In this document: piece by piece, positions 35,557 through 51,571 of the stretch
Numbering within the stretch: position 1 is the stretch's first letter
How the letters are laid out: every line of letters starts with the position of its first letter
Assembly: GCA_040386775.1 (NCBI GenBank)
Contig: JAZKEU010000003.1
Span: forward strand, 64,308 to 128,307
Direction of reading: 5' to 3'
Source: Bdellovibrionota bacterium
GTDB taxonomy: Bacteria > Bdellovibrionota > Bdellovibrionia > Bdellovibrionales > JAEYZS01
Length of the DNA: 64,000 nucleotides
Translations under genes and position numbers: made by a program
The notes under the pieces: model-generated
Seen by the model: only the letters and a program-made list of their open reading frames with translations
The model's database searches: none
Told to the model about the DNA's origin: nothing

Positions 35557-35573
35557 TTGGCACCTGCTGTGCA
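35557..35573 (+). promoter_or_regulatory. Sigma-54 promoter of the flagellar operon
   Basis: TTGGCACCTGCTGTGCA: the -24 box TTGGCAC, exact GG-N10-GC spacing and a -12 box GTGCA (one base from TTGCA). Transcription would begin near 35583, about 20 bases before the GTG start of the TPR protein gene. A sigma-54 activator gene is second in the operon, supporting the call. It lies in the 360-base gap between divergent operons. Confidence 0.75.
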
Positions 35574-35602: not shown

Positions 35603-38425
35603 GTGTTCATCAAAACTTTAGTATTGCTTATTTTATGTGCGACGAGCTTTGAGGTTACGGCCCAAGGTACAGGTACTGCAGTTGCTCCAGTTGCCAACAG
35701 CGGCAGCATTTCTGTGGGAATCGAAGACATGAACGACGTTGCTCATTTCGAATTCAACGGCAGAGAAATCTGGGATTATAAGCTCACGAGAGAGGCTGAC
35801 GGCATTGTTTCGGTGGAAGTGGATCAACTAGATGATAAATCTGTTATCCAGCTCAAAACAATCAAAAGCAAGCACATTGAAAAAATCGAAATTCTTCCAG
35901 GGGTAAATTTAAAAAATAAAATCGTTTTTTATCTAAAAGACAAATCGACTCAAAGTTTTGATTATATCACTGATCAACCTTCAAGATTGGTTGTGGATTT
36001 CTTTAAAGATGCTCCGCAAAAACCAGCGGCTGTAGTCCAAGTAAAAAAAGTTCCAGCTAAAATTGCAAAACTACCTGTCAAAAAAGGTAGAGCTCCTGCC
36101 GGGACTGATTTTTTAATCAGTGATACAAAAAAAGAAATTACTAGAGTAGCTCCAAGCGTGTTGGATGGAGCAGATCCCAATTATACACGTTTTAAAATTG
36201 AAGATTATGAAATAAAAGAATCTGCAATCATTGCGTCTAAATTAAATTTATACATTACTTATCCGATGCTTTTAGTTGAAATGCATGACCTTCAGGATAT
36301 TTTGGCTACACCCAATATTTATAATTTCGAAAAGAGCGAAACAGATGAAGGAAAAAAGGCACAATTGCTTTTAACTTTATTCAAAAAAGGAAAAACTGAT
36401 CCTGAAACTCAAGAAAAAAATCCACTTGAAAAACCTAGGAATGCAGTTTTTTTAAAGACTCTAGATTTATTTAAAAAAGAATATCCAGATTCAAAATACA
36501 AAGAGACTCTAGATTTCATGGAAGCCGACACATATTATAATTTGTGGGTCCAAGACAAAAAAATTTCGGATTTCGATACAGCAATCAATTTATACACAAA
36601 AATTTTATTATCAGTAAAAGCCTCTAAGTATCATGATAGAATTGAAAGACTCATGGGCTATTCTCATATGGATAGAGCAGATTACTTAACGGCCTTCACC
36701 GTATTCCAAAAATACATCAATAGGAATCCAGATTCAGAACACAAATATAGAATCAAGACTGCAATGGCAGAGTGTTTGGCCAAATTGAATAACACATCTG
36801 ATGCTCTAAAAATTTATGAAGAAATTGAATCAGATCCAAAAGCGGGCATCAATGCTGCAGAAGCGGCCTTTAGAAAAGGCGATATATATGCCATCACAAA
36901 GCAATATGATAAAGCGATCGCTGAATATGAGAGAGCTCTTAAGAAATATTCTAAAGAGCAAGATCAGTATCCAAATGCATTCTATAACATTGCAGAAAGC
37001 AAATTTTGGCTCAATAGAAATAGAGAAAACTTAAAGCAAAGTTTGAATGCCTACATCGAGTTCTTAAAAAAATATCCAAAGAGCGAGCATGCAAGCTATG
37101 CGATGGAAAGAATCGGCGAAACTCTAGAAATCTTAGGAGCTCCTCAAAAAAGATATAACGGAGCCTTTGTAGAAACTATTTATAGATATGGAAACTCTCA
37201 GGCAGCAGGAATTGCGAAGATTCGCTTGTTGAGAGCACAGATTCCTTCAATGAAAGATAAGCAAGTCGTTGAAGAAGTTGCTAAAGTGAATGAGTTCATT
37301 AAAACCTCGAGCTTAGAAAAATTAACAGAATTCAAAACAATCATGATTTCTGATGGCTACTACGCAGATAAAAACTATGATGAAGCCTTAAAAAATCTAA
37401 TTGCTTTCTATCAAGAGCATCCGCTTTCAGACTATCTTGATGTCTTTAAGAAAAGAATCGTACAAACGATCAAAGATCAAATTGGATTCTCAATTGCGAA
37501 AGGCGATTACTTAAAAGCTTTCCAAATTTATGGTCAGAATGCGGGAAGTTGGTTAAAGGGTGCAGATCGAATAGACACAAGCTATCTTTTAGGAGTGGCG
37601 TTCGAAAAATCAGGCGTTCCTGATGAAGCGCAAAAGAAATATCAATCCGTATTGAATAAGCTTTATGCTATTCGTGGAACTATTGAAGAAAAAGAAAGAG
37701 GCGTTTTTGAGGAGCTACCGAGTATCGATGAAGTCAATCTAAGGCTGGCAGCAGTTTTTGTTGCTAAGAATGAATATGGAAAAGCTCAAGATCACCTCAA
37801 AGAAATATCCGGAAAAGATGCTACAGATGATGAAAAAGTAGAAAAAGTTTATTTGTCTTCTATCGTTTATGAAAAATTAAATAATCCAGAATTCGCAATC
37901 AGAAATTTAAAAGAATTGACGGAAACTTGGAGAGGAAATCCCGAAAAGCTTTCGTCCGTATATCTGAGGTTGGCAAAGCTTCAGTCGGAAAGTAATCAAA
38001 ATGCAGATGCGATCGGAACACTGGATCGTCTTCTCAACATGTCTACAGATTCTTCGGTTGTAACGGATGAAGACCAGATGTTGGCTTTAAGATTAAAAGC
38101 TGAATATGCCGTGGCAATAAAAAAAGACAAAACTGCGATCGAAGCTTATAGATCACTGCTTGATCTTTTCGAAGACAAGTATCCACTTTACTCTGCCAGA
38201 TACCAACTGGGGAAAATTCATTACGACACCGGCGATGTCAAAGAAGCAGAAAAAGTATGGAGCCCACTTAAAGACAAATCTGATGCGCAATTGTGGGACA
38301 AATTGGCACAAGAAAATTTAAAAAGTTCTAACTGGAACAGCGAATACAAAAAGTACACAAATAGAATTCCAGCTATGGTGAACGATAAAGCTGGCTCATC
38401 TCCTAAAGAAGGAAACAAAAAATGA
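35603..38425 (+). CDS. Exported TPR-repeat protein with AMIN-like domain, flagellar operon
   Basis: 940 residues from GTG at 35603, which follows AAGGAG seven bases upstream; the frame also contains a GTG at 35588. Signal peptide (hydrophobic 5-20, VTAQG). Residues about 30-130 form an AMIN-like beta domain as in envelope proteins. Residues about 250-930 contain many TPR-like helical pairs (e.g. AIAEYERALKKYSKEQ, AIEAYRSLLDLFEDKY). It is probably a periplasmic scaffold for flagellar assembly or a wall-associated component. First gene after the sigma-54 promoter and overlapping the activator gene start by four bases, so it belongs to the flagellar operon. Exact role unknown. Confidence 0.8.
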   Translation: MFIKTLVLLILCATSFEVTAQGTGTAVAPVANSGSISVGIEDMNDVAHFEFNGREIWDYKLTREADGIVSVEVDQLDDKSVIQLKTIKSKHIEKIEILPGVNLKNKIVFYLKDKSTQSFDYITDQPSRLVVDFFKDAPQKPAAVVQVKKVPAKIAKLPVKKGRAPAGTDFLISDTKKEITRVAPSVLDGADPNYTRFKIEDYEIKESAIIASKLNLYITYPMLLVEMHDLQDILATPNIYNFEKSETDEGKKAQLLLTLFKKGKTDPETQEKNPLEKPRNAVFLKTLDLFKKEYPDSKYKETLDFMEADTYYNLWVQDKKISDFDTAINLYTKILLSVKASKYHDRIERLMGYSHMDRADYLTAFTVFQKYINRNPDSEHKYRIKTAMAECLAKLNNTSDALKIYEEIESDPKAGINAAEAAFRKGDIYAITKQYDKAIAEYERALKKYSKEQDQYPNAFYNIAESKFWLNRNRENLKQSLNAYIEFLKKYPKSEHASYAMERIGETLEILGAPQKRYNGAFVETIYRYGNSQAAGIAKIRLLRAQIPSMKDKQVVEEVAKVNEFIKTSSLEKLTEFKTIMISDGYYADKNYDEALKNLIAFYQEHPLSDYLDVFKKRIVQTIKDQIGFSIAKGDYLKAFQIYGQNAGSWLKGADRIDTSYLLGVAFEKSGVPDEAQKKYQSVLNKLYAIRGTIEEKERGVFEELPSIDEVNLRLAAVFVAKNEYGKAQDHLKEISGKDATDDEKVEKVYLSSIVYEKLNNPEFAIRNLKELTETWRGNPEKLSSVYLRLAKLQSESNQNADAIGTLDRLLNMSTDSSVVTDEDQMLALRLKAEYAVAIKKDKTAIEAYRSLLDLFEDKYPLYSARYQLGKIHYDTGDVKEAEKVWSPLKDKSDAQLWDKLAQENLKSSNWNSEYKKYTNRIPAMVNDKAGSSPKEGNKK

Positions 38426-39378
38426 TTCAACAAAATCATGCTATCTTAACTCTAGATCCAAATATGAGAAAAGTTCTTAAAGTAGCTGAGAACATTGCTC
38501 ACAGTAAAGCTTCTGTGCTTGTGACTGGTGAAAGTGGAACAGGTAAGGAATTGTTAGCAAGATACATTCACTCTAAGAGTCCAAGAGTTCTTAAGAGAAT
38601 GGTTGCCATCAATTGCGCAGCTGTTCCAGAAGGATTATTAGAGAGCGAGTTGTTCGGCCATGAAAAGGGATCCTTCACGGGAGCACATCAAGCAAAACCT
38701 GGGAAATTTGAATTGGCTCACCAAAGTACATTGTTATTAGATGAAATGGGAGAGCTTCCACTTCTTTTACAATCTAAGCTTTTAAGAGCGCTTCAGGAAG
38801 GTGAGATCGAAAGAGTTGGCGGCAGAGAGCCAATCAAAGTGGATGTGAGAATTATCGCGACGACAAATAAAGATCTAAAGAAATTAGTTCAAGAGGGACT
38901 ATTTAGGGAAGACCTTTACTACAGATTGAATGTGATCCCTGTTCATATTCCGCCACTTAGGGCTCGACCAAAAGATTTAATTCTTTTGGCAAAACACTTT
39001 GTGGAGGTGGCATGCATCAATAATGGAATCCAAGCCAAGGATCTCTCGCAAGATGCCATCAACAGTCTTCAGATTTCTCAATGGCCAGGAAATATCAGAG
39101 AATTACAAAACGTCATCGAGAGAACAGTGCTCTTAAGTCAGAATCAAATCATCACGGAAGAAGATTTAAATCTACAAATTGAAAATAATGTAGGAGACGT
39201 GCCATTCACTCCAGGAATGACATTAGGAGATGCCGAAAAGTTTTTGATTTTAAAAACTCTAGAGTTTACAAGCCAAAACAGAACTCAGGCTGCAAAAATT
39301 TTAGGAATTAGCATTAGAACTTTAAGAAACAAACTGAGCGAATATCGAAAGGACGGTGAGCATGAGCAAACTGTTTGA
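38422..39378 (+). CDS. Sigma-54 activator without receiver domain, flagellar
   Basis: 318 residues starting directly at the AAA+ domain: Walker A GESGTGKE (36-43), GSFTGA loop (83-88), Walker B-like LLLDEMGELP, arginine region REDLYYRLN, then a C-terminal Fis-type HTH (RTQAAKILGISIRTLRNKLSEYRK). There is no receiver or other sensor domain. It resembles flagellar activators (FlrC/FleR/FlbD class) in context but lacks the usual N-terminal control region, so its activity may be set by its amount or by protein partners. It begins inside the end of the TPR gene (ATGA overlap) and its end overlaps the flgB start. It probably activates this operon's own sigma-54 promoter and other flagellar promoters. 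Confidence 0.9.
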   Translation: MIQQNHAILTLDPNMRKVLKVAENIAHSKASVLVTGESGTGKELLARYIHSKSPRVLKRMVAINCAAVPEGLLESELFGHEKGSFTGAHQAKPGKFELAHQSTLLLDEMGELPLLLQSKLLRALQEGEIERVGGREPIKVDVRIIATTNKDLKKLVQEGLFREDLYYRLNVIPVHIPPLRARPKDLILLAKHFVEVACINNGIQAKDLSQDAINSLQISQWPGNIRELQNVIERTVLLSQNQIITEEDLNLQIENNVGDVPFTPGMTLGDAEKFLILKTLEFTSQNRTQAAKILGISIRTLRNKLSEYRKDGEHEQTV

Positions 39379-40221: not shown

Positions 40222-40238
40222 AAGAGTCAAAGACTCTT
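40222..40238 (+). other. Hairpin between flgC and fliE
   Basis: AAGAGTC-AAA-GACTCTT, a perfect 7-pair stem ten bases after the flgC stop, followed by GGGG. It precedes the conserved element at 40247. No T-run follows, so it is more likely to influence mRNA processing or stability than termination. Confidence 0.55.
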
Positions 40239-40246
40239 GGGGTAAC

Positions 40247-40276
40247 TAGTTGTCGCCAGAAGGCGACACTGAGGCA
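40247..40276 (+). repeat. Conserved intercistronic hairpin element, copy 1 (before fliE)
   Basis: TAGTTGTCGCC-agaa-GGCGACACTGAGGCA: stem TGTCGCC/GGCGACA (7 pairs). The same block with a different but still paired stem occurs at 49652 and 50130. Ends six bases before the fliE start and supplies part of its ribosome binding region. Confidence 0.7.
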
Positions 40277-40282
40277 GGAACC

Positions 40283-40633
40283 ATGGATGGTTTAAGATTT
40301 AATACGGGGACAACAAACGTTACAGATAATGTGAACGAGCTCAGAAAGAGTATAACTTCTGAAGCGAAAGCACCATCTGGATCAAATTCTCCCGGAATAG
40401 GTTCCAGCTCTGGGGAATCATTTGCCGATTCACTCAAGAAAGCTGTCAACACTGTGGATAGCTTGCAAAAAGACGCCGACGTCAAAATGCAAGAGTTAGC
40501 TACAGGCAAAAGCCAAAACATCCATGAAACAATGATCGCTGCAGAAAAAGCAGATATCGCTTTAAAGTTAATGGTTCAAGTTAGAAATAAAATTATAGAT
40601 GCGTACCAAGAAATTATGAGAATGCAGGTGTGA
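40283..40633 (+). CDS. fliE: Flagellar hook-basal body protein FliE
   Basis: 116 residues from ATG at 40283 with AGGAA three bases upstream; the longer frame from 40250 would pass through the hairpin element and is unlikely. The C-terminal half (DIALKLMVQVRNKIIDAYQEI) is the FliE signature that links the MS ring to the rod. Follows flgC and precedes fliF, with four bases to its start. Confidence 0.93.
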   Translation: MDGLRFNTGTTNVTDNVNELRKSITSEAKAPSGSNSPGIGSSSGESFADSLKKAVNTVDSLQKDADVKMQELATGKSQNIHETMIAAEKADIALKLMVQVRNKIIDAYQEIMRMQV

Positions 40634-40637
40634 TGAT

Positions 40638-42290
40638 ATGACAAAATTATGGTCGAGCTTAATTGTTCAATTTAAAAATTTTTACAAGAATCTAACGCCG
40701 ACAAAGCGAATGTCGATGATTGCATCTCTCGGGATCGTGTTGGCAGCAATCACGATTGTATCGGTGATGATGTCGAGCACTAGTTTTGTACCGATGATGA
40801 AGGATGTTTCTTCAGAAAGTTTACCTCTCGTCATTGAAAAATTAAAATCTAAGAATATCCCCTTCAAAGTCGAAGAAGGCGGAAAAACAATTTCCGTGCC
40901 ACCGGAGCATGTTTACACAACTCAAATGGCATTGATGACAGAGCTTGGAACAAGTCATGTTGGCAATATTGGTTTAGAATTATTTGATAAGCAAGATCTA
41001 GGCGCTACAAGTTACGTTCAAAGAATCAATTACCAACGAGCACTCCAAGGTGAATTGATGAGAGCTATCAATAGTCTGGATGCAGTTAAAAAATCAAAAG
41101 TTCTTTTAGCTCTTCCTCCAAAGAAAACTTTTCTAGAGGAAGCAGGAAAAACAACAGCTTCTGTAACAGTGGATCTGCACCCTGGAAAAACTCTCTCTGA
41201 AGATCAAGTTCGAGGCATCACAAACTTGGTGGCATCGTCTGTTGAGAATCTAATTCCAGAAAATGTAACGGTTGTAGATTCAAGAGGAAAGGTACTTTCT
41301 AAAAACAATGGTGATTCAGTTTCTGCAATGTCTCTAGAGATGATGGAGCTGAAAGAAAAAACCGAAAGACAATTAGAGAGTCGAATCGAAGGAATTTTAA
41401 CTCGTGTCGTGGGCCAAGGAAAAGTGATCGCAAAAGTAAATGCGGATATCAATAGCCGTGATGTAGTATCGGTAGAAGAAATCATTGACCCCGATAAGAC
41501 AGCAGTAAAATCTACAATTACCGAAGATGAAAAATTAAATGGCAACAGGAGAAATCCAACGGGTGTGCCAGGAGCCAGAGCCAATCTTCCTGGAGCGGAA
41601 GAAGGTCAGCAAGTGGCCTTCAACCAAGATGTTTCTAAAGAATATAAAACAATCAATTACGATGTACCAAAAACGGTTAGAAATATAAAAGAAGCCCCGG
41701 GAGCTATCGAGAGAATCAGTATCTCTGTTGTTGTTGATGGCGTAATGGAAAATATTAAAAAAGAAGATGGCACTTTCGAAAAGCAATATAAACAAAGATC
41801 GCCAGAAGAGCTTCAGAAATATGCTTCCTTAGTTCGTGGAGCAATCGGCTTTAGCGAAAAGCGCGGCGATACATTCACGATCGAGAACATGCCATTTGAG
41901 CAAGAAAATTTTGAAGAGGCAGAGCAAATTCTCAACTCACTTGAGAGAAGAAAGTTATTCTCTTACATGTTAAAATGGGGAATCATAGGTTTAGCCTTCC
42001 TATTGTTCTTCTTTGTTGTGGTGCGACCATTCATGAGATGGATTACGGATAATTTCCAAGAATCTGTGGAAGAATTGTTACCGAAGACAATTGAAGAGTT
42101 AGAAGAATTGCAATCTGTCGATAATACTTTGCCAGGCATGTCTGCAGCGCTCCCTACGCTTGAGGAATCTATTGATCCTGATAAAGCTGAAAGTGAATTA
42201 TTGAAAGATAGAATTCTTGGATTGGTTGGAAGCAATAACAAGAAAGCAGCTGATGCTCTTGGTCTGTGGCTTGTAAGGAGAGATTCGTGA
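40638..42290 (+). CDS. fliF: Flagellar MS-ring protein FliF
   Basis: 550 residues with two membrane segments: one near 24-44 (MIASLGIVLAAITIVSVMMS) and one near 450-468. The periplasmic region contains the FliF ring-building motif region LELFDKQDLGATSYVQRINYQRALQGEL and the sequence VDSRGKVLS. The cytoplasmic C-terminus that binds FliG is present and ends in RRDS. Forms the base ring of the flagellar motor. Its stop overlaps the fliG start (GTGA). Confidence 0.95.
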   Translation: MTKLWSSLIVQFKNFYKNLTPTKRMSMIASLGIVLAAITIVSVMMSSTSFVPMMKDVSSESLPLVIEKLKSKNIPFKVEEGGKTISVPPEHVYTTQMALMTELGTSHVGNIGLELFDKQDLGATSYVQRINYQRALQGELMRAINSLDAVKKSKVLLALPPKKTFLEEAGKTTASVTVDLHPGKTLSEDQVRGITNLVASSVENLIPENVTVVDSRGKVLSKNNGDSVSAMSLEMMELKEKTERQLESRIEGILTRVVGQGKVIAKVNADINSRDVVSVEEIIDPDKTAVKSTITEDEKLNGNRRNPTGVPGARANLPGAEEGQQVAFNQDVSKEYKTINYDVPKTVRNIKEAPGAIERISISVVVDGVMENIKKEDGTFEKQYKQRSPEELQKYASLVRGAIGFSEKRGDTFTIENMPFEQENFEEAEQILNSLERRKLFSYMLKWGIIGLAFLLFFFVVVRPFMRWITDNFQESVEELLPKTIEELEELQSVDNTLPGMSAALPTLEESIDPDKAESELLKDRILGLVGSNNKKAADALGLWLVRRDS

Positions 42291-43321
42291 GCAGTCTTAA
42301 AAAACTAGAAAATATGAAGTTTGAAGAACTCAAAGGATTTGAGAAGGCCGCAATCCTTCTGAACTACTTGGGTAAAGATGCTACCACACAAATGCTTCAA
42401 TTCTTAGATGATGCTGACATCAGAAAACTTCTTGGAATCATGAATAGATTGAGAGTGGTTCCGGTAGATATCACCAAAAAAGTATTAGAAGAATTCTATG
42501 AAATGATCAGTGAAAGTAATGAGTATATTTTCTCTGCGGACTTAACAAATAAAGACAATATTGTAAATGCAGTCGGTGAAGAACGCGCACGCGGAATCTT
42601 GGGTCACTTAAATACAAAGGGTACATCAAGAAGCTTAGAAAGCTTAGAGACTGTAGATGCAAAATCCTTGTCAAACTTCTTGATCAATGAACATCCACAA
42701 ACAATCGCGGTGGTATTGGCCCATTTGGAGCCAGAGAAAAAAGCGGAAGTGATCAAGCGTTTACCAGAGAATATCCAAACGGAAGTGGTATTGAGACTTT
42801 CTAACTTGGATTATATTTCTCCGGCATTGATTGCAGAATTGGATCAAGTATTGAAGGAAGAACTTTCAACTGTGGGTACTGTGGATCAGGCATCTTTGGG
42901 TGGGGTACAGCCAGTGGCCGAGATGATGAATATCATGGACAAAAATACAGAATCGCAAATTATGGGTCGATTGGAAGAAAAAGATCCTATCTTGGCGGAA
43001 GAAATCAGAAAACTGATGTTTGTATTCGAAGACATTACAAAAATCGACGACAAGGGTATTCAGACTCTTCTCAAAGAAGTTCCAAACGACAAACTTCTGC
43101 TTTCTCTCAAAACTGCAAACGAAGATATTCGCGGAAAAATCTTCAAGAATATCTCTGCTCGTGCGGCTCAATTATTGAGAGAAGATTTAGAGGCTATGGG
43201 CCCTGCAAGATTGTCAGATGTTGAATCGGCACAACAGGAAATTGTGAATGTAGCAAGAAAGCTAGAGCAAGAAGGAAAGATCTTAATCGCAAGAGGCGGT
43301 TCGGAGGATGCGCTTGTCTAA
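42287..43321 (+). CDS. fliG: Flagellar motor switch protein FliG
   Basis: 344 residues. GTG start at 42287 with AAGGAG six bases upstream; the frame reaches back to 42266 without a site. Contains the three FliG domains with the middle EHPQ motif (NEHPQTIAVVLAHL) and the C-terminal charged region (MFVFEDITKIDDKGIQTLLKEV) that interacts with MotA. Controls rotation and direction. Part of the C-ring on the cytoplasmic face of FliF. Confidence 0.95.
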   Translation: MSSLKKLENMKFEELKGFEKAAILLNYLGKDATTQMLQFLDDADIRKLLGIMNRLRVVPVDITKKVLEEFYEMISESNEYIFSADLTNKDNIVNAVGEERARGILGHLNTKGTSRSLESLETVDAKSLSNFLINEHPQTIAVVLAHLEPEKKAEVIKRLPENIQTEVVLRLSNLDYISPALIAELDQVLKEELSTVGTVDQASLGGVQPVAEMMNIMDKNTESQIMGRLEEKDPILAEEIRKLMFVFEDITKIDDKGIQTLLKEVPNDKLLLSLKTANEDIRGKIFKNISARAAQLLREDLEAMGPARLSDVESAQQEIVNVARKLEQEGKILIARGGSEDALV

Positions 43322-44099
43322 TTTTACTAGGTCAAACTTTGTACGCACAAGTATTGTTATTCGTCACGATGACGAAGACAAAAAAGGTGTTCTCAACTAT
43401 GAGGCAAAGAAGATCGATATGGAAATGCCTCGCTCTGCTAGACAATTTGTGACCGAGCAGCCTTTGGAGCTAGGGCCTCAATTCGTTATTGATGAATTGA
43501 TTTCTAAACAGACGGGTATTTTTGAAAAAGAAAAAATGAAAGTCGAACAAGCAATCGATGATAAGGTTATCGAAAAGCTTAAAGATATTCAAGAAAAGGC
43601 CTATAAAGAAGCTTATGAATTGGGATTGGAAGAAGGTAAAAAACTTGCCTATGACAATAACCAGGAAGCGATCAAGTTTCATCTTTCCGAAATGATCACA
43701 TTATTTGAAAATTTAAAAACCATGAAAAAAGACATCTTAAATAAAAACGAAAGTGTCTTTGTAGATTTAATCTATCACATCGCTGAAAAGGTTGTCATGG
43801 AACATGTTCAAAAGAGCGAGACAACAACCGTAGAGGTGATCAAGCAGGTTGTCGATTCTCTCGATGTAAAAGAAGATATCTCGGTAAGGTTGAATCAAGA
43901 AGATTTTGCAATCATGCAAAAGCTTATGGGTGAGAATAGTCAAGAAGCGGAGATTTTTAAAAAATTAAAATTCTACGCGGATCCAGAGATACAAAAGGGC
44001 GGATGTATGTTCGAGACCAATCACGGATTGGTGGATGCAACTCTGGAAGAGAGAATTGCAAAGCTTTGGACGCTTTTAAATCAAACTAAACCAGTGTAA
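43308..44099 (+). CDS. fliH: Flagellar assembly protein FliH
   Basis: Up to 263 residues, with the FliH C-terminal region (about 150-255: VFVDLIYHIAEKVVMEHV and VRLNQEDFAIMQKL) and a charged coiled-coil middle region. Binds and restrains the export ATPase FliI. The ATG at 43308 touches GGAGG with no spacing; the TTG two codons later (43314) has GGAGG six bases upstream and is the more likely start. Overlaps fliG by up to 14 bases. Confidence 0.9.
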   Translation: MRLSNFTRSNFVRTSIVIRHDDEDKKGVLNYEAKKIDMEMPRSARQFVTEQPLELGPQFVIDELISKQTGIFEKEKMKVEQAIDDKVIEKLKDIQEKAYKEAYELGLEEGKKLAYDNNQEAIKFHLSEMITLFENLKTMKKDILNKNESVFVDLIYHIAEKVVMEHVQKSETTTVEVIKQVVDSLDVKEDISVRLNQEDFAIMQKLMGENSQEAEIFKKLKFYADPEIQKGGCMFETNHGLVDATLEERIAKLWTLLNQTKPV

Positions 44100-44120
44100 A
44101 TAAAAACAGGCGGAGATTTT

Positions 44121-45443
44121 TTGGATACGGTTTTAAAACTTGATAAGTACAAAAAAATTCTCGATCAAAATTCTCTTTCGAAAGACGTAGGGAAGATCAC
44201 CCGCGTTGTGGGAAGCTTGCTTGAAGGCTACCTTCCGGGTGCCTCGGTGGGTAGTCAATGTTATGTGCAAGCTGCAAATAAAAAACAAGTTTTAGCAGAA
44301 GTTGTGGGATTCAAAGATCAAAAAGCACTCATGATGCCATTCTACGACATTCAAGGAATTGGCTTAGGATCAAAAATTGTCTTAGACAAACAAGTTTCTA
44401 CAATCAAAGTCGGTAAAAATATTCTTGGAAGAATTCTTAATGGATTAGGACAAGAGATTGATGGACACGGACCTGTAGAAACTCATGATGAAATTGATAT
44501 CTATAGAAAGTCAGTAAACCCATTGCAAAGAAGACCCATCGAAGAGCCTTTGGATCTCGGTGTAAGGGCAATCAATAGTCTTATTACTGTTGGAAAAGGT
44601 CAGCGTATTGGTATTATGGCGGGCTCGGGCGTGGGGAAGTCCGTGTTGCTGGGGCAAATGGCAAAGAACACTCAAGCAGATGTGAATGTGATTGCATTGA
44701 TAGGTGAGAGGGGCCGTGAGGTTCGTGAGTTTATCGAGAGCGATTTGGGGCCTGAAGGTTTAGCAAGATCAGTGATCATCTGTGCTACGTCAGATGAAAG
44801 CCCGCTCATGAGAATGAGAGGAGCCTTTGTTGCGACAGCCATTGCCGAATATTTTTCTGATATGGGGCTCAATGTTTTATTTATGATGGACTCGGTGACT
44901 CGTTTTGCAATGGCGCAAAGAGAAATTGGACTCAACATTGGCGAGCCGGCAACAACAAAAGGTTACACGCCAAGTGTATTTGCATTGTTGCCAAAATTAT
45001 TAGAAAGAATGGGTTCATTTGAATCAGGAAGCTCAATCACGGGTCTCTATACTGTTTTAGTAGAGGGCGATGATATGGACGATCCAATTGCCGATTCAGT
45101 AAGATCAATTGTTGATGGTCACATTGTTTTAACTAGAAAATTAGCTCACAAGGGTCATTTCCCTGCTATCGATGTGCTTCAAAGTTCAAGTCGTGTGATG
45201 AGAAAAGTCATCGCACCCGAACACATGAACTTTGCCCATCAATTCAAAGAGCTTTTAGCAACTTATGCGGACGCGGAAGATCTAATTAATATTGGAGCTT
45301 ATAAAGCCGGAGCTAGTCCAAAGATTGATAGAGCTGTAAGACTTCACGATAAGATGGATCAATTTTTAAAACAAAATATAGACGAGAAAGCCAGTTTTAA
45401 TGATTCGCTTTATGGAATGGTAGATATCTTAAGCGGTGGATGA
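44121..45443 (+). CDS. fliI: Flagellar export ATPase FliI
   Basis: 440 residues from a TTG start with GGAG five bases before it. Walker A GSGVGKS, Walker B VLFMMDSVTRFAMAQREI, the flagellar/type III signature RPIEEPLDLGVRAINSLITVGKGQR (given here in part as RPIEEPLDLGVRAI) and SSSRVM are typical of FliI. Energises export of rod and hook proteins. Next to fliH and fliJ, with which it works. Confidence 0.95.
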   Translation: MDTVLKLDKYKKILDQNSLSKDVGKITRVVGSLLEGYLPGASVGSQCYVQAANKKQVLAEVVGFKDQKALMMPFYDIQGIGLGSKIVLDKQVSTIKVGKNILGRILNGLGQEIDGHGPVETHDEIDIYRKSVNPLQRRPIEEPLDLGVRAINSLITVGKGQRIGIMAGSGVGKSVLLGQMAKNTQADVNVIALIGERGREVREFIESDLGPEGLARSVIICATSDESPLMRMRGAFVATAIAEYFSDMGLNVLFMMDSVTRFAMAQREIGLNIGEPATTKGYTPSVFALLPKLLERMGSFESGSSITGLYTVLVEGDDMDDPIADSVRSIVDGHIVLTRKLAHKGHFPAIDVLQSSSRVMRKVIAPEHMNFAHQFKELLATYADAEDLINIGAYKAGASPKIDRAVRLHDKMDQFLKQNIDEKASFNDSLYGMVDILSGG

Positions 45444-45455
45444 TAGAATTATTAT

Positions 45456-45491
45456 AAGTGGACATGAAGTCCGCTTCGCACTGAATAGTGC
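45456..45491 (+). other. Two hairpins between fliI and fliJ
   Basis: First stem AAGTGGAC-atgaa-GTCCGCTT (8 pairs with one T-G) at 45456-45476, second stem GCACT-gaat-AGTGC at 45478-45491. They fill the 71-base gap between fliI and the fliJ start, upstream of its ribosome site. No T-run, so not clear terminators. Confidence 0.5.
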
Positions 45492-45514
45492 AATCAGACA
45501 GGAAGTTTAAGCCA

Positions 45515-45958
45515 ATGAAGTTTAAGTTCGCACTTGAAAAAGTACTTAAGCATAAAAAAATTCTGGAAGACCAGGCCAAGAAAGACTTTGGCGAAATTTC
45601 TAAAAGGCTTAGAGATCAAGAGCAATTCCTGACAAATTTAGAAGCGGATCTCAAAACGGCATTCGAAAATAAACATCAAATTCAAATCATGGGTGGAAAC
45701 ATAGGTGCATACCTAGAATTTTTCCATAACTATTACAATGCTCAAAAGAAATTGATCGAAAATCAAAAGAAAATCATCTCAGGGTTAGAGCGTATTCTCG
45801 AGGAAAAAAGACAATTTCTCGTACAGGCAGCTAGAGATCACAAGACCTTCACAATGTTAAAAGAAAAGAAAAAATTAGAATTTAAAAAAGAATTAAATAA
45901 ACGCGAACAGAAACGTCTCGATGATATGAACATCATGAGACATGATAAGGCAGTGTAA
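45515..45958 (+). CDS. fliJ: Flagellar export chaperone FliJ
   Basis: 147 residues, almost entirely coiled coil and rich in Lys, Glu and Gln (KFKFALEKVLKHKKILEDQAK and later REQKRLDDMNIMR). Matches FliJ in length and place after fliI. The ATG at 45515 has AGGAAG about nine bases upstream and is preferred to the Met nine codons earlier at 45488, which falls in the hairpin region. Binds FliI and the export gate. Confidence 0.85.
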   Translation: MKFKFALEKVLKHKKILEDQAKKDFGEISKRLRDQEQFLTNLEADLKTAFENKHQIQIMGGNIGAYLEFFHNYYNAQKKLIENQKKIISGLERILEEKRQFLVQAARDHKTFTMLKEKKKLEFKKELNKREQKRLDDMNIMRHDKAV

Positions 45959-45960
45959 TA

Positions 45961-46743
45961 ATGAAAACAGGGTACGACACACACTTTAAAAAAATTCAAA
46001 AGAACTCACGCTTTCAAGTGAAGCCGAATAGCTCTCCTGCGGCCAATCGCCCAGAGGGAATGAAAATTCAAAAGAAAAAGAAGAAGCAAGGTTTTCCTCT
46101 TGTTTCAGTTCTTTCTACTTTGTGCATTTTGGGAGGAGCTACCTACGGATATATCAATCCTGATCAAGTTGATCAGTACTTAAGTAAAATTGAAATTGGA
46201 TTTTTAGGTCAATCGTTTGCAGAAAGTGCACCAGCACCAAATGCATCTAAAGGGCAAAAAGCTCCTGCTGAATCCGGAAAAGTGGAAAAATCTGCCGACG
46301 GCAAAAGTCTTGAGACAAAAACAAAAACAACGACAGCTACAGGTCTCACTTCCGAAGAAATCGCTCTTTTCAATAGTTTAGATGAAAGAAAAAAACAACT
46401 AGACGTGAAAGAGGCGGAACTCAAAAAGTTGGAAGAAGAATTGCATAATCAAAAGGTAGAGCTCGAAAAGCGTTTAGCAAGTTTGGAGCAACTGAGAACA
46501 CAAATTGGAAATCAGTTGCAAGAAAGAGTGAACACAGATGCCGAGCAAGTAGATAAGTTAGTGGCTTTCTACTCTTCGATGAAACCGCAAACGGCGGCCA
46601 AGGTCATCGAAAAATTAAATGAGGACTTGGCAGTTGAAGTTCTCAAGAAGATGAAAAAGAAAGAAGCTGCTGAGATCATGAATATGATCGAACCAGATAA
46701 GGCTCAGAGATTGAGCGAGAAGTTTGCAGGCTATAAGAAATAG
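45961..46743 (+). CDS. motE: MotE-family flagellar protein
   Basis: 260 residues: a Lys-rich N-terminus, one membrane segment (about 44-62, FPLVSVLSTLCILGGATYG), a linker, a coiled coil (about 125-190) and a C-terminal MgtE-N-like segment (MKPQTAAKVIEKLNEDLAVE and later IMNMIEPDKAQRLSEKF). MotE-like proteins help place the motility protein MotC/stator in some bacteria. The role in this organism is by homology only. Two bases after fliJ and 45 before fliK. Confidence 0.75.
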   Translation: MKTGYDTHFKKIQKNSRFQVKPNSSPAANRPEGMKIQKKKKKQGFPLVSVLSTLCILGGATYGYINPDQVDQYLSKIEIGFLGQSFAESAPAPNASKGQKAPAESGKVEKSADGKSLETKTKTTTATGLTSEEIALFNSLDERKKQLDVKEAELKKLEEELHNQKVELEKRLASLEQLRTQIGNQLQERVNTDAEQVDKLVAFYSSMKPQTAAKVIEKLNEDLAVEVLKKMKKKEAAEIMNMIEPDKAQRLSEKFAGYKK

Positions 46744-46788
46744 TTAGGATAAAAATAGTTAATAGACGGGATTGGGGAACGAACTAAG

Positions 46789-48573
46789 ATGGTATCAGGA
46801 ATTGGGTTAGGAAAATTTAATCCGCTCGATATGAAAGAGACTGCAAAGTCTTCCAAGCCTTCTTCTTTTGATTCTTCATCATCTCAAGAGGTTACACCTC
46901 GCTCAAACAACTCTTCGGCGTCACAAAATAAATCTTTAGAGAAATCCAGAGAAAAATCTGACAAAAAAGATTTCAATAGTAAAGTAGAAAGTTATTCAAA
47001 AGAGCCGCAGAATTCTTCAAAAGTAGACAAGTCTGGTAAGTTCACTGATAAAAAAATCAAAGAAGCTCAATCCGAAATACAACAGAGTTCAGAGAAAAAT
47101 TCACAGGAAAATTTACAGAATGGTTCTGAAATCCCGCAGATGGCAATGCTCCAAGGTGTTCAACCATTATTTATAAATCAACAAGCTACAGCAGAAGTGA
47201 AGTCTTCGGACTCAGTTGGATTGAACTTAGAGAATGTGTCTGGCAAAGTATCAGAGCAGACACAGCCGGTTCTTCAATTCTTAAAAGCAATGCAAGAGAA
47301 CTTTGGAATTAGCCCTCATCAAGTGATGAAGGCTTTGGGTGAAATGCCAACAGAAACAATGTTGCAATCACCGCAAGCGGCAATGACTCCACTTTTTGAA
47401 AAATTAGGAATTCAACCAAAGCAATTCACTAAGGCTCAAATCTTGTACACAGAGATGTTAACGGCAATGGAAAAAAATCCGCCAGAAGCATTTAGTGGTA
47501 AACTTGCAGTTGGAGCTGGTACTGCTGGCGTAGGTGCAGCTGCTGCTATGAAGTCCTCTGAGCTTCCAGTTCAGATGATGGACAAGCCCGTCGCAGGTCC
47601 AAAATCAACATTGGATCAGTTGATTGAACAAAAAATTTCAAGACGTGCTCTAGAGCCCTCAAATATGAAAGGTGCTCTTCCACAAGTTCAGCAGCCGCAA
47701 GTCAACATGGCTCAAGTATTTAAGATGGACCCAAGCCAAATAAATCCCTTGGCTACGCCAGTAGATATGGATTCGGTGGCACTTAACAAATTACAAGAAC
47801 TAGATCCAAACTTAAGAATCGAAGACATCAAAATCAATCCCAACAGAGTGACTGAACAATTCTCATCAAGTGCCCCAATCTTAGGTGCAGGCGCAGCGGT
47901 TACGGCTTTAGCGGCAGCGACTAAAGATCAACAAAAAGATATGTCTGAAGAACAAATGAAAGATCAATTTGCGGAGCAGATTGGTCAAATGCCAACAGAC
48001 AAAAAATTAGATGGTCAATTTGCCATGGACAAACTTGGAGCTCCAGTAGCGGCCGGGACATTGGCAGGCCAACCGAATCAACTTTCAAATGAAAACGTAG
48101 AAAAATTAATTTCCGGATCGCAAACTCTAATTAAAAAGGGTGGCGGAGAAATGAAAATTCAACTCAATCCAGAGGGATTGGGTACAATCCACGTGAACAT
48201 TCAAGTGAAAGACGGCCAAGTGGGTGTGCAGATGATGGCTGATAATCATGAAGCGAAAAAACTTCTTGAGACAAGCATGAGTGATTTAAAAGTAGGATTA
48301 GCAGATCACAAATTAAACTTGAACCAAATGAAAGTGGATGTCTCTGAACAGGCTTCTCAAAATATGAATCAAAATCATGATTTTAAGAGAGAAGAAGCGA
48401 GAGATTTCTTAGGACAATTTAGACAGTTCAATGAAGGATTTAGACAAGGTGCAAGTGATACATCGGGAGCGAGAGCTTATAAAAAAGCAGCACAACCAAC
48501 TCCAGATATTAACCCGGTGGAATCAAGAAGATCAGAATCAAACAAGTCTGGTGGATTGTACTTAGTAGCGTAA
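46789..48573 (+). CDS. fliK: Flagellar hook-length control protein FliK
   Basis: 594 residues. The N-terminal half is low-complexity (Ser, Gln, Lys, Pro), as expected for a molecular ruler. The C-terminal Flg_hook domain (about 430-525) has MKIQLNPEGLGTIHVNIQVK (shown in part) and the following switch region. Sets hook length and changes export specificity. A hypothetical role would be to measure the hook built from flgD/flgE downstream. 14 bases to flgD. Confidence 0.88.
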   Translation: MVSGIGLGKFNPLDMKETAKSSKPSSFDSSSSQEVTPRSNNSSASQNKSLEKSREKSDKKDFNSKVESYSKEPQNSSKVDKSGKFTDKKIKEAQSEIQQSSEKNSQENLQNGSEIPQMAMLQGVQPLFINQQATAEVKSSDSVGLNLENVSGKVSEQTQPVLQFLKAMQENFGISPHQVMKALGEMPTETMLQSPQAAMTPLFEKLGIQPKQFTKAQILYTEMLTAMEKNPPEAFSGKLAVGAGTAGVGAAAAMKSSELPVQMMDKPVAGPKSTLDQLIEQKISRRALEPSNMKGALPQVQQPQVNMAQVFKMDPSQINPLATPVDMDSVALNKLQELDPNLRIEDIKINPNRVTEQFSSSAPILGAGAAVTALAAATKDQQKDMSEEQMKDQFAEQIGQMPTDKKLDGQFAMDKLGAPVAAGTLAGQPNQLSNENVEKLISGSQTLIKKGGGEMKIQLNPEGLGTIHVNIQVKDGQVGVQMMADNHEAKKLLETSMSDLKVGLADHKLNLNQMKVDVSEQASQNMNQNHDFKREEARDFLGQFRQFNEGFRQGASDTSGARAYKKAAQPTPDINPVESRRSESNKSGGLYLVA

Positions 48574-48586
48574 AAGGAAATAGCGA

Positions 48587-49639
48587 ATGAACGTAAAGTT
48601 GAATACAAAATTAATTAACGATAAGCCCAACGAAAAGCTTGAAGGCACTTACAACAAGGCTTCAAATCTGGATGCAAAAAAATCAGAAGAGTTTTTCCAA
48701 GGTAAGGACATGGGTCAGGTTCTCAATGAGATCTCTGATCCAAACTGGGTTGATCCAAAGAAAATGAGAAGAGCTGAAAGCAAGATGGATAAAGATGCTT
48801 TCATGAAATTGATGCTCACTCAGCTGAAGTATCAAGATCCAATGAACCCTCTCGAGTCACATGAGATGGCTGCTCAGTTGGCTCAGTTCTCGCAACTAGA
48901 ACAATTATCAAATATTGATGAAAGCGTTAAGAGTTTAAAAACTGCCCAAGACCCAATGGCCAACTATCAAGCATTGAATTTCATTGGCAAGTCTGTGACT
49001 ACGAATACTGAAAAAATCATTCGTAACAAAGGCGACAGTGCACATGACTTAAGATTCTCTCTTCCACAAGGTGCTCGTGAAGTGAATGTAAAGATCATGG
49101 ATGAGGTGGGAGAAGTTGTAAAAACAGTTAAAGCTACAAATTTAAAACCAGGTGAAAACACACTCACTTGGAATGGAACTAAGAATGATGGTTACCCAGC
49201 ATTCTCTGGAAATTACACCATCGCGGTAGAAGGAGTCTCTGAACAAGGCGCTAAGATCGTTGGCAGAACAACTGCCTCTGGTGTTGTGACAGGATTGAAT
49301 TATTCTCCTGAAGGACCAATCTTAATGATCGGTGATCAAAAAGTAAGATTGAGTGACGTAAAAAATATTGAAGACTTAAATGAAAAGATGGCTCAACAAA
49401 TTAGAGAGCAAGGACAACAGGCTCCGCAAGTTCCAGGACAAGCGGTAGCACCGGTTCCAGCCCAGGGGCAGAATGGGGCAAATGCTTCCCCAAAACAAAG
49501 TCCAACTAATGTCTCTAAAGGTGCAAAGAAAGAAGAAGTTGCTGGAGCTCCTGATCGTCCCGCTGGTAATATAAATAAAGTACCAATGAGCGGCGAGCTT
49601 CAACAAATGTTAGCAAAAGAAGCGAGCTTAAAAAGTTAG
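48587..49639 (+). CDS. flgD: Flagellar hook cap protein FlgD
   Basis: 350 residues, longer than usual. The conserved N-terminal part has MLTQLKYQDPMNPLESHEMA and AQLAQFSQLEQL, the FlgD signature. The middle (about 150-240) is an Ig-like beta domain. The extra C-terminus is Pro/Gln/Ala-rich and unstructured. Acts as scaffold for hook growth. A hairpin element follows before the next gene. Confidence 0.92.
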   Translation: MNVKLNTKLINDKPNEKLEGTYNKASNLDAKKSEEFFQGKDMGQVLNEISDPNWVDPKKMRRAESKMDKDAFMKLMLTQLKYQDPMNPLESHEMAAQLAQFSQLEQLSNIDESVKSLKTAQDPMANYQALNFIGKSVTTNTEKIIRNKGDSAHDLRFSLPQGAREVNVKIMDEVGEVVKTVKATNLKPGENTLTWNGTKNDGYPAFSGNYTIAVEGVSEQGAKIVGRTTASGVVTGLNYSPEGPILMIGDQKVRLSDVKNIEDLNEKMAQQIREQGQQAPQVPGQAVAPVPAQGQNGANASPKQSPTNVSKGAKKEEVAGAPDRPAGNINKVPMSGELQQMLAKEASLKS

Positions 49640-49651
49640 AATATAGAGGAA

Positions 49652-49683
49652 TAGTTGTCGCTCGATAGAGCGACGCTGAGGCA
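49652..49683 (+). repeat. Conserved intercistronic hairpin element, copy 2
   Basis: TAGTTGTCGCTC-gata-GAGCGACGCTGAGGCA. Stem GTCGCTC/GAGCGAC (7 pairs), same ends as copy 1 but with a changed closing region that still pairs. It ends six bases before the start of the small flagellar-operon protein gene and carries its ribosome binding region (GAGGCAAG). Confidence 0.7.
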
Positions 49684-49689
49684 AGTGGA

Positions 49690-50121
49690 ATGTTAAAAAA
49701 TATGGGATCGATACAACCTAATTCTCAAGTGACTCCGTCGACTGGTGGAATCAACAAGGGAATCTCGTCTAAAGATGGCGAGTTATTTAAAGGGTTATTA
49801 GAGAAAGAAGTCTCTAAAGACCTAAAGGATTTAGGCCAAACGAAACCAGCATTAGCACAAACGGAAGGTTTAAAATTTTCTACGCATGCGATCGAGCGAA
49901 TCCAGTCACGTGGAATCAAGCTCACACCGGATGATATGAAGAAGTTAAACGATGCAGTTGATAAAGCCATTCAAAAAGGCTCTAAAGACACGCTTGTGTT
50001 AATGGGTGAAAATGCTTTTGTTGTAAGTGCAAAAAATAAAACTGTAATTACAGCAATGGACAAAAACCAAATGAAAGAAAACGTGTTTACGAATATCGAT
50101 AGCACAGTTTTCATGGGTTAA
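49690..50121 (+). CDS. Flagellar operon protein, TIGR02530 type
   Basis: 143 residues with KFSTHAIERIQSRGIKLTPDD (shown in part as FSTHAIERIQSRGI) and a following DTLVLMGENAFVVSAKNKTVIT, the pattern of the TIGR02530 flagellar operon protein found between flgD and flgE. Role not settled; it may help hook assembly. Place and conservation support a real gene. Confidence 0.8.
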   Translation: MLKNMGSIQPNSQVTPSTGGINKGISSKDGELFKGLLEKEVSKDLKDLGQTKPALAQTEGLKFSTHAIERIQSRGIKLTPDDMKKLNDAVDKAIQKGSKDTLVLMGENAFVVSAKNKTVITAMDKNQMKENVFTNIDSTVFMG

Positions 50122-50129
50122 GAAAAACT

Positions 50130-50158
50130 TAGTTGTCGCTAGGGAGCGACACTGAGAC
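50130..50158 (+). repeat. Conserved intercistronic hairpin element, copy 3
   Basis: TAGTTGTCGCT-aggg-AGCGACACTGAGAC. Stem TGTCGCT/AGCGACA (7 pairs). Sits 8 bases after the stop of the small flagellar protein and 126 bases before flgE, so here it is not joined to a ribosome site. Confidence 0.65.
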
Positions 50159-50234
50159 TAGTTAAAAGGGGTATTAAGGGTTTTAGGTTACGGATTATAA
50201 ATTAGGGGCTGGACCCGCAAGGGGGGCCCTCCAA

Positions 50235-50257
50235 ATCTCGAATAGAATGTTCGAGAT
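50235..50257 (+). other. flgE leader hairpin
   Basis: ATCTCGAA-tagaatg-TTCGAGAT, 8 pairs, ending 27 bases before the flgE start, downstream of a GC-rich segment (50203-50231) that may also fold. The 163-base gap before flgE therefore contains three structures, suggesting a regulated leader or an internal promoter. Confidence 0.5.
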
Positions 50258-50284
50258 ACAATGTCTTTAATGACAGGAGGTCAT

Positions 50285-51571
50285 ATGAGTGTTCTTTCAT
50301 CAATGCTGACAGGTGTGTCAGGTTTAACAGCGCAAGGTGAGGCGTTAGGTGTTATCGGAGATAACATTGCCAACTCACAAACAACAGGTTTCAAATATTC
50401 AAGAGCTGAGTTCCAAGACATCGTGTCGAAGAACTTAAAAGGTATTCTTGGTGGTAACCAAATCGGTCGAGGTGTGAAGATCGGTGCCGTGAATCCAATC
50501 ATGATTCAAGGTAATATTGATCAAACAGAAAAGGCTACGGATTTAGCAATTTCTGGAGACGGTTACTTTACTCTTAGAGGTGGCGACGGGGAAACATTCA
50601 CTAGAGATGGTTCTTTCCACTTCGACAAAGATGGTTTCTTGGTAACAAATGACGATAGAAAAGTGCAGGGTTATCAAACCGATGCAAAAGGAAAATTGAT
50701 CAATCAAATTGGTGATATCAGATTCCCGAAAGCTCTTGTTCCAGCAAAGCCAACAAAAGAATTAATGGTTCACTTGAACTTAGATTCTAGAGAAGTAGCC
50801 GGTAAAACATTCGATATCAAAGATCCACACGCAACTTCAAACTATTCAACTGGTGTAGAAGTTTATGATTCTCAAGGAACTAAGCACTTAGTAACAGTTT
50901 TCTTCAACAAAACTGCTGATAGAAATTGGGAATATCGTGGTTTAGTGGATGGTAAAGAAGTAACCGGTGGTAAAGAAGGCGAAATGTCAGAAGTTATCAA
51001 AGGCAAAATCTCGTTCAACGTGGACGGTATCTTGGATACAGAAGAAACATCTTCTCAAGGATTCAACTTCACAGGTGGAGCATTACAAGGCCAACAAATC
51101 AAATTGGATTTTGGCGATTCATTAACAACAGACAAAGGCAAAGGATTAATCGGTTCTAAGCAATACGGTAAAGAATCAGATTTAATCACTTGGAAACAAG
51201 ATGGAGCCGCAGCAGGAACAATCAATAACCTATCATTCAATGATGATGGTGTTTTAACGGCTCTATACAGTAACGGGCAAGCAGAAGATTTAGCACAAGT
51301 TGTGATTTCAAGATTTGAAAATTCCGAAGGTTTGTACAAACTTGGTAACAACAGATTTAAGCAATCCAGAAACTCTGGGGAAGCTTCAATCGGTAAGCCA
51401 GGTTCGAACGGTAGAGGAACTTTACAGGCGAAATCTCTCGAGAAATCAACTGTGGATTTGGCTCTTGAATTCGTAAAACTAATTCAAAACCAAAGAGCGT
51501 TCCAGGCCAACGCAAAGACGATTACAACAACTGACGAATTGTTAGCAGAAGTAATCAACTTAAAGAGATAA
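50285..51571 (+). CDS. flgE: Flagellar hook protein FlgE
   Basis: 428 residues from ATG at 50285 with AGGAGG four bases upstream. N-terminal rod/hook motif (SSMLTGVSGLTAQGEAL and NIANSQTTGFKYSRAEF), YFTL and FTRDGSF, and the C-terminal helix LALEFVKLIQNQRAFQANAK (shown in part) with TTTDELLAEVINLK are the FlgE signature. It forms the hook filament. No terminator hairpin is visible directly after it. Confidence 0.95.
   Translation: MSVLSSMLTGVSGLTAQGEALGVIGDNIANSQTTGFKYSRAEFQDIVSKNLKGILGGNQIGRGVKIGAVNPIMIQGNIDQTEKATDLAISGDGYFTLRGGDGETFTRDGSFHFDKDGFLVTNDDRKVQGYQTDAKGKLINQIGDIRFPKALVPAKPTKELMVHLNLDSREVAGKTFDIKDPHATSNYSTGVEVYDSQGTKHLVTVFFNKTADRNWEYRGLVDGKEVTGGKEGEMSEVIKGKISFNVDGILDTEETSSQGFNFTGGALQGQQIKLDFGDSLTTDKGKGLIGSKQYGKESDLITWKQDGAAAGTINNLSFNDDGVLTALYSNGQAEDLAQVVISRFENSEGLYKLGNNRFKQSRNSGEASIGKPGSNGRGTLQAKSLEKSTVDLALEFVKLIQNQRAFQANAKTITTTDELLAEVINLKR

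Follow-up and report, generated by a model that had tools for sequence, protein, structure and literature searches.

A leader RNA of three hairpins (P1 to P3; positions 50205-50284) precedes the flagellar hook gene flgE in the window, by which we mean the whole 64,000-nucleotide stretch of Bdellovibrionota DNA analysed here. It was noticed on reading the TIGR02530-flgE gap of relatives and lies 47 nt downstream of the last of three copies of a shorter hairpin in the same operon (Table 1). The leader is found at homologous places in related genomes and carries compensatory base changes, as expected of a conserved cis-regulatory RNA, and thus reaches a standard that the three-copy hairpin, with a single covarying pair and no counterpart found in relatives, does not. 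We infer that the leader very probably controls the amount of flagellar hook protein.

Table 1. Positions of RNA elements and genes of the flagellar operon in the window
Feature	Positions	Strand	Description
Sigma-54-type promoter match	35558..35573	+	1 mismatch; before the operon's first gene
Small hairpin	40222..40238	+	AAGAGTC-AAA-GACTCTT; upstream of copy 1 and unrelated to it
Hairpin copy 1	40247..40275	+	flgC-fliE gap; tail GAGG is a candidate fliE Shine-Dalgarno, 8 nt 5' of ATG 40283
fliE start-codon hairpin	40278..40293	+	GAACC-AUGGAU-GGUUU; CsrA-type hexaloop form
fliE	40283..40633	+	TIGR00205
Hairpin copy 2	49652..49682	+	flgD-TIGR02530 gap; gains one base pair; GAGG of the tail 8 nt 5' of ATG 49690
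TIGR02530 flagellar gene	49690..50121	+	Pfam PF12611
Hairpin copy 3	50130..50158	+	TIGR02530-flgE gap, directly 3' of the TIGR02530 stop; tail GAGAC, no start codon behind it
flgE leader P1	50205..50230	+	GGGGCU-GG bulge-ACCC GCAAG GGG GGCCCU
flgE leader P2	50235..50257	+	Hairpin; loop type NGANYGANYGAN in most relatives, not in the window
flgE leader P3	50270..50284	+	AUGAC-AGGAG-GUCAU; loop holds the Shine-Dalgarno (CsrA-type GGA hairpin); flgE ATG 50285 follows directly
flgE (hook protein)	50285..51571	+	

Structure and conservation of the flgE leader

A covariance model of the leader, built in two rounds, gives exactly one match per genome in 107 of the 141 genomes of the order. It also matches three genomes of another family in the class and two from other classes of the phylum; in the latter two, P1, P2 and the Shine-Dalgarno stretch are likewise recognisable ahead of a flgE-like start. 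In the loci that were read, flgE follows directly 3' of the leader. The assignment of genomes to the order, like the term Bdellovibrio-like used below, is based on gene content. Among 60 aligned sequences, 93% of the cells pair and 17 of the 20 pairs change on both sides, with 252 cells changed on both sides versus 68 in shuffled controls and no more than 37 in slid ones; these figures are somewhat inflated by the fitting of the alignment to the structure, and the slid and shuffled controls are far off. At 37.9 bits, the leader of the window is one of the weaker matches.

Each of the three hairpins has features of its own. The P1 consensus across relatives consists of GGGC(U/C), a nearly invariant GG bulge, a stem and GGCCC, followed in most sequences by UCC or UUC, while P2 carries a 12-nt loop. 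We know of no RNA element that corresponds to P1, with its bulge, or to P2. Helix P3 covaries at all four pairs, its stem varying with compensation between GAC/GUC, AAC/GUU, ACC/GGU and AUC/GAU, and A(N)GGA occurs in the P3 stretch of 58 of the 60 sequences, with G-G-A-G invariant where aligned.

The search of the window against Rfam 15 gave no match, and none of relevance was obtained at E<=5 for six loci, namely the locus of copy 1 and five flgE leaders, each from a different genome, none scoring above the curated gathering threshold by which Rfam membership is decided. The same searches agree with the original prediction that the three-copy element belongs to no named family. A search of the open-access literature found no published description of the flgE leader.

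A hairpin present three times in the operon

The original prediction had described three covarying hairpin blocks, which were confirmed in the window sequence at their positions and strand: all three lie on the sense strand within a long chain of flagellar genes, at gene boundaries. The operon, which starts behind a sigma-54-type promoter match, also encodes its own sigma-54 activator (38422-39378). The blocks share a unit of 29-31 nt, UAGUUGUCGCY-(4-6 nt)-RGCGACRCUGAGRC, including the 3' tail GCGAC(A/G)CTGAG(G/A)C as it had been described, and outside this unit their flanks are unrelated, so that its boundaries are sharp. In the best common fold predicted for the three copies, UAGU pairs with RCUG and GUCGCY with RGCGAC, leaving one bulged U; the stem base and the tail are conserved and the apical loops vary (AGAA, GAUA and AGGG). 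Fold energies are better than those of shuffled sequences (z of -2.0, -2.2 and -2.8). Copies 1 and 2 directly precede fliE and TIGR02530, at a distance of seven bases from the ATG rather than the six first given, and their tails contribute part of the ribosome binding region of these genes, as had been proposed.

The recurrence of the unit is far beyond chance expectation. The pattern TGTCGC-N3-8-GCGACR has five matches in the window versus 0.03 expected, the five corresponding to three places, two of which are counted on both strands. In the entire genome of 2.86 Mb, AGTTGTCGC-N2-12-GCGAC occurs exactly three times, always on the same strand and in the same flagellar operon. All 30 of the 30 pair cells are standard pairs; since slid versions pair in at most 53% of cells as against 100%, the fold is a real sequence architecture. 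Eight of the ten pairs are invariant, one is changed on both sides and one is a wobble, and copy 2 gains one more; the inner pairs change as originally reported (C-G in copy 1, U-A and an extra C-G in copy 2, U-A in copy 3). The term covarying was an overstatement, as one pair only is concerned and the covariation of three sequences is not significant by itself (143 of 500 shuffles are as good). Such covariation is consistent with a selected RNA without proving selection, and conservation among three copies in one genome can reflect recent common descent instead of selection.

The covariance model of the three copies recovers them at 41-46 bits, and its scan of the 141 genomes of the order found nothing else above chance-like scores (<=26 bits). 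Homologues of TIGR02530 and fliE were searched in 60 genomes, and the unit was not found in the gaps before these genes in the loci that were fetched and read, including those of two genomes of the same family. The outcome that had been named as refuting the prediction was thus seen by half: the homologous operons of relatives yielded no copies, and one pair of the stem does covary. Given this result for the relatives of the order, the three hairpins are, at the level of sequence comparison, lineage-private. Weak matches of the model within the order, where their context is readable, lie in open reading frames (L066, L067, L069 and L070) or overlap a gene end (L068); a Mycolicibacterium match from the scan of GTDB contigs is inside an open frame and near chance by estimate, and viral contigs gave zero matches. 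In four Bdellovibrio-like genomes (L005-L008) a different hairpin, GAAGCTGTCCYGAAGNGACAG, follows the TIGR02530 stop at the place that copy 3 has in the window; it was rejected as a homologue, being present in a single copy in each and unrelated in sequence.

With the looser pattern TAGTT..CTGAGRC, paired arms are formed in the own genome by the three copies and by one weak AT-rich place only. The tail GACRCTGAGGC occurs at two other genomic places, neither in rRNA, which does not support mimicry of 16S rRNA. One such place (L156/L174) led, in a local scan covering 460 kb, to a possible diverged fourth copy, AUAAUUGUCACU..AGUGACGCUGAGGC, of 23.0 bits (L174:10038-10064, C26 of the own genome, minus strand); it lies in the spacer 5' of a gene for a hybrid sensor kinase. 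Because it was reached via its matching tail, we treat this match as unproven; a fourth copy outside the operon, if real, would argue against a flagellar-specific role.

Origin and possible roles of the repeated hairpin

Intercistronic stem-loops of bacterial operons serve segmental mRNA stability and processing. The hairpins studied here are like them in lying in the gaps of one transcript near gene boundaries, and unlike them in that the same short, sharply bounded unit is present three times in one operon, any processing being putative. We tentatively prefer, with nearly balanced confidence, to read them as cis-acting stem-loops of this kind that came about through local copying. One unit of 29-31 nt would have multiplied into three spacers within one chain of flagellar genes, and the resulting hairpins would delimit or stabilise segments of a long mRNA (those of fliE and following genes, TIGR02530 and flgE). 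A protein or nuclease possibly reads the conserved stem base, the tails of two copies may additionally supply ribosome binding sequence, and the flgE segment 3' of copy 3 would be governed separately by the old, conserved three-hairpin leader. Action as an intercistronic stem-loop, by stability, processing or protein docking, appears the most likely mode in this model. Masking or freeing of the Shine-Dalgarno sequence was rejected, as shuffling the hairpin in silico leaves the predicted accessibility of the fliE and TIGR02530 start regions unchanged, and no intrinsic terminator (a hairpin followed by a U run) is called on the sense strand at any of the three hairpins.

A more specific role had been proposed, in which the hairpins are the site of an RNA-binding protein or RNase that tunes the subunit ratios of fliE, TIGR02530 and flgE. 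Their placement at gene boundaries would suit such a site, and the conserved bulge, stem base and tail next to a free loop suggest recognition of the stem base; we nevertheless consider it unlikely, given that the hairpin is not conserved beyond its own genome and that there is no candidate protein, CsrA being out because the loops have no shared GGA. More generally, the differences between the three loops make it unlikely that the hairpins are bound by a protein which, like CsrA, reads the loop. The four Y1 (REP-type) transposase genes of the genome prompted a test of a transposon-like origin, by which the hairpins would be functionless copies, made within the operon, of a small mobile palindrome similar to REP or MITE elements. 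The unit resembles REP/RAYT palindromes as a short palindromic sequence copied in a genome with Y1 transposases, its boundaries are sharp, a weak, putative fourth copy lies elsewhere in the genome, three of the Y1 genes have long inverted palindromic ends, and one of these ends contains TTAGTCGC..GCGACTA. As a rule, REP elements are scattered over a genome in large numbers, whereas here three sure copies share one operon and one orientation, and no match of the hairpin model falls at the four Y1 loci or their transposase ends, which makes this origin improbable. The lowest probability is assigned to TGTCGC..GCGACA as a DNA operator, that is, a palindromic site of a transcription factor. Although copies 1 and 3 are near-perfect palindromes on both strands, the arm distance varies (6, 8 and 6 nt), the conserved flanks are asymmetric, the changes keep RNA pairing, and the region has no excess of promoters, so that an operator is very hard to credit.

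Three of the Y1 loci (L157, L158 and L159; C12, C10 and C16 of the own genome) each carry inverted palindromic repeats of ~41 nt with the same 707-nt spacing and differing end sequences, and look like a family of small IS-like elements. As for the three-copy hairpin, it is best regarded as a modest, lineage-private curiosity.

CsrA, FliW and the hook gene

The third hairpin of the flgE leader has the sequence form of a CsrA operator, with A(N)GGA in the loop of a small stable hairpin at the Shine-Dalgarno sequence (AGGAG in the window). A csrA gene (TIGR00202) is present in the own genome and was found in 57 of 60 genomes that were searched, and fliW and csrA stand side by side, adjoining flgL and flgK (L161:3349-4190, C25 of the own genome; FlgK assigned by sequence only). 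The leader of Campylobacter flaA contains an operator hairpin for CsrA (RsmA/E), high-affinity CsrA/RsmE sites have the CANGGANG hexaloop, and in Campylobacter jejuni the flgE mRNA is enriched 68-fold with CsrA (PMC4894983). P3 is like these operators in that the loop of a small hairpin presents the Shine-Dalgarno GGA; the C-AUGGAG-G of most relatives fits the CANGGANG hexaloop, and the window's pentaloop AGGAG is one base shorter. Unlike the operators of the same study (PMC4894983), the leader has P1 and P2 in addition and its binding of CsrA is a prediction only, and the three-copy hairpin does not fit them.

The A(N)GGA motif in 58 of 60 sequences, the compensated stem, the presence of csrA and fliW and the binding of flgE mRNA by CsrA in C. 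jejuni together suggest that CsrA is the likely reader of P3, and that it may regulate through it. A similar form is seen at the start codon of fliE, where most relatives retain a hairpin with an AUGGAN hexaloop and show some compensating changes in it (for example AAUUCC-AUGGAA-GGAAUU in L058), its sequence being in part also constrained by the encoded protein (MDG/MEG). Hairpins with an A-N-GGA-N hexaloop are not above chance across the whole window, and it is therefore conservation that speaks for the fliE hairpin.

Based on these comparisons, we propose that CsrA and FliW may control the translation of the hook protein via the flgE leader. In its fullest form, which we advance tentatively and would not yet call probable, the proposal is that the leader represents a new regulatory RNA family of the phylum, in which P3 would be a CsrA operator over the ribosome binding site of the hook gene, P1 with its GG bulge and P2 with its patterned loop would bind a second factor, and FliW/CsrA together with a second signal would check hook synthesis, the private hairpins being a later addition. 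In the open-access literature we found no report of flagellar genes being controlled post-transcriptionally in this way in this phylum. Flagellin is the best-known target of FliW and CsrA; a hook gene whose Shine-Dalgarno sequence is presented in a CsrA-type loop among the relatives of Bdellovibrio would, if true, extend their control to the hook.
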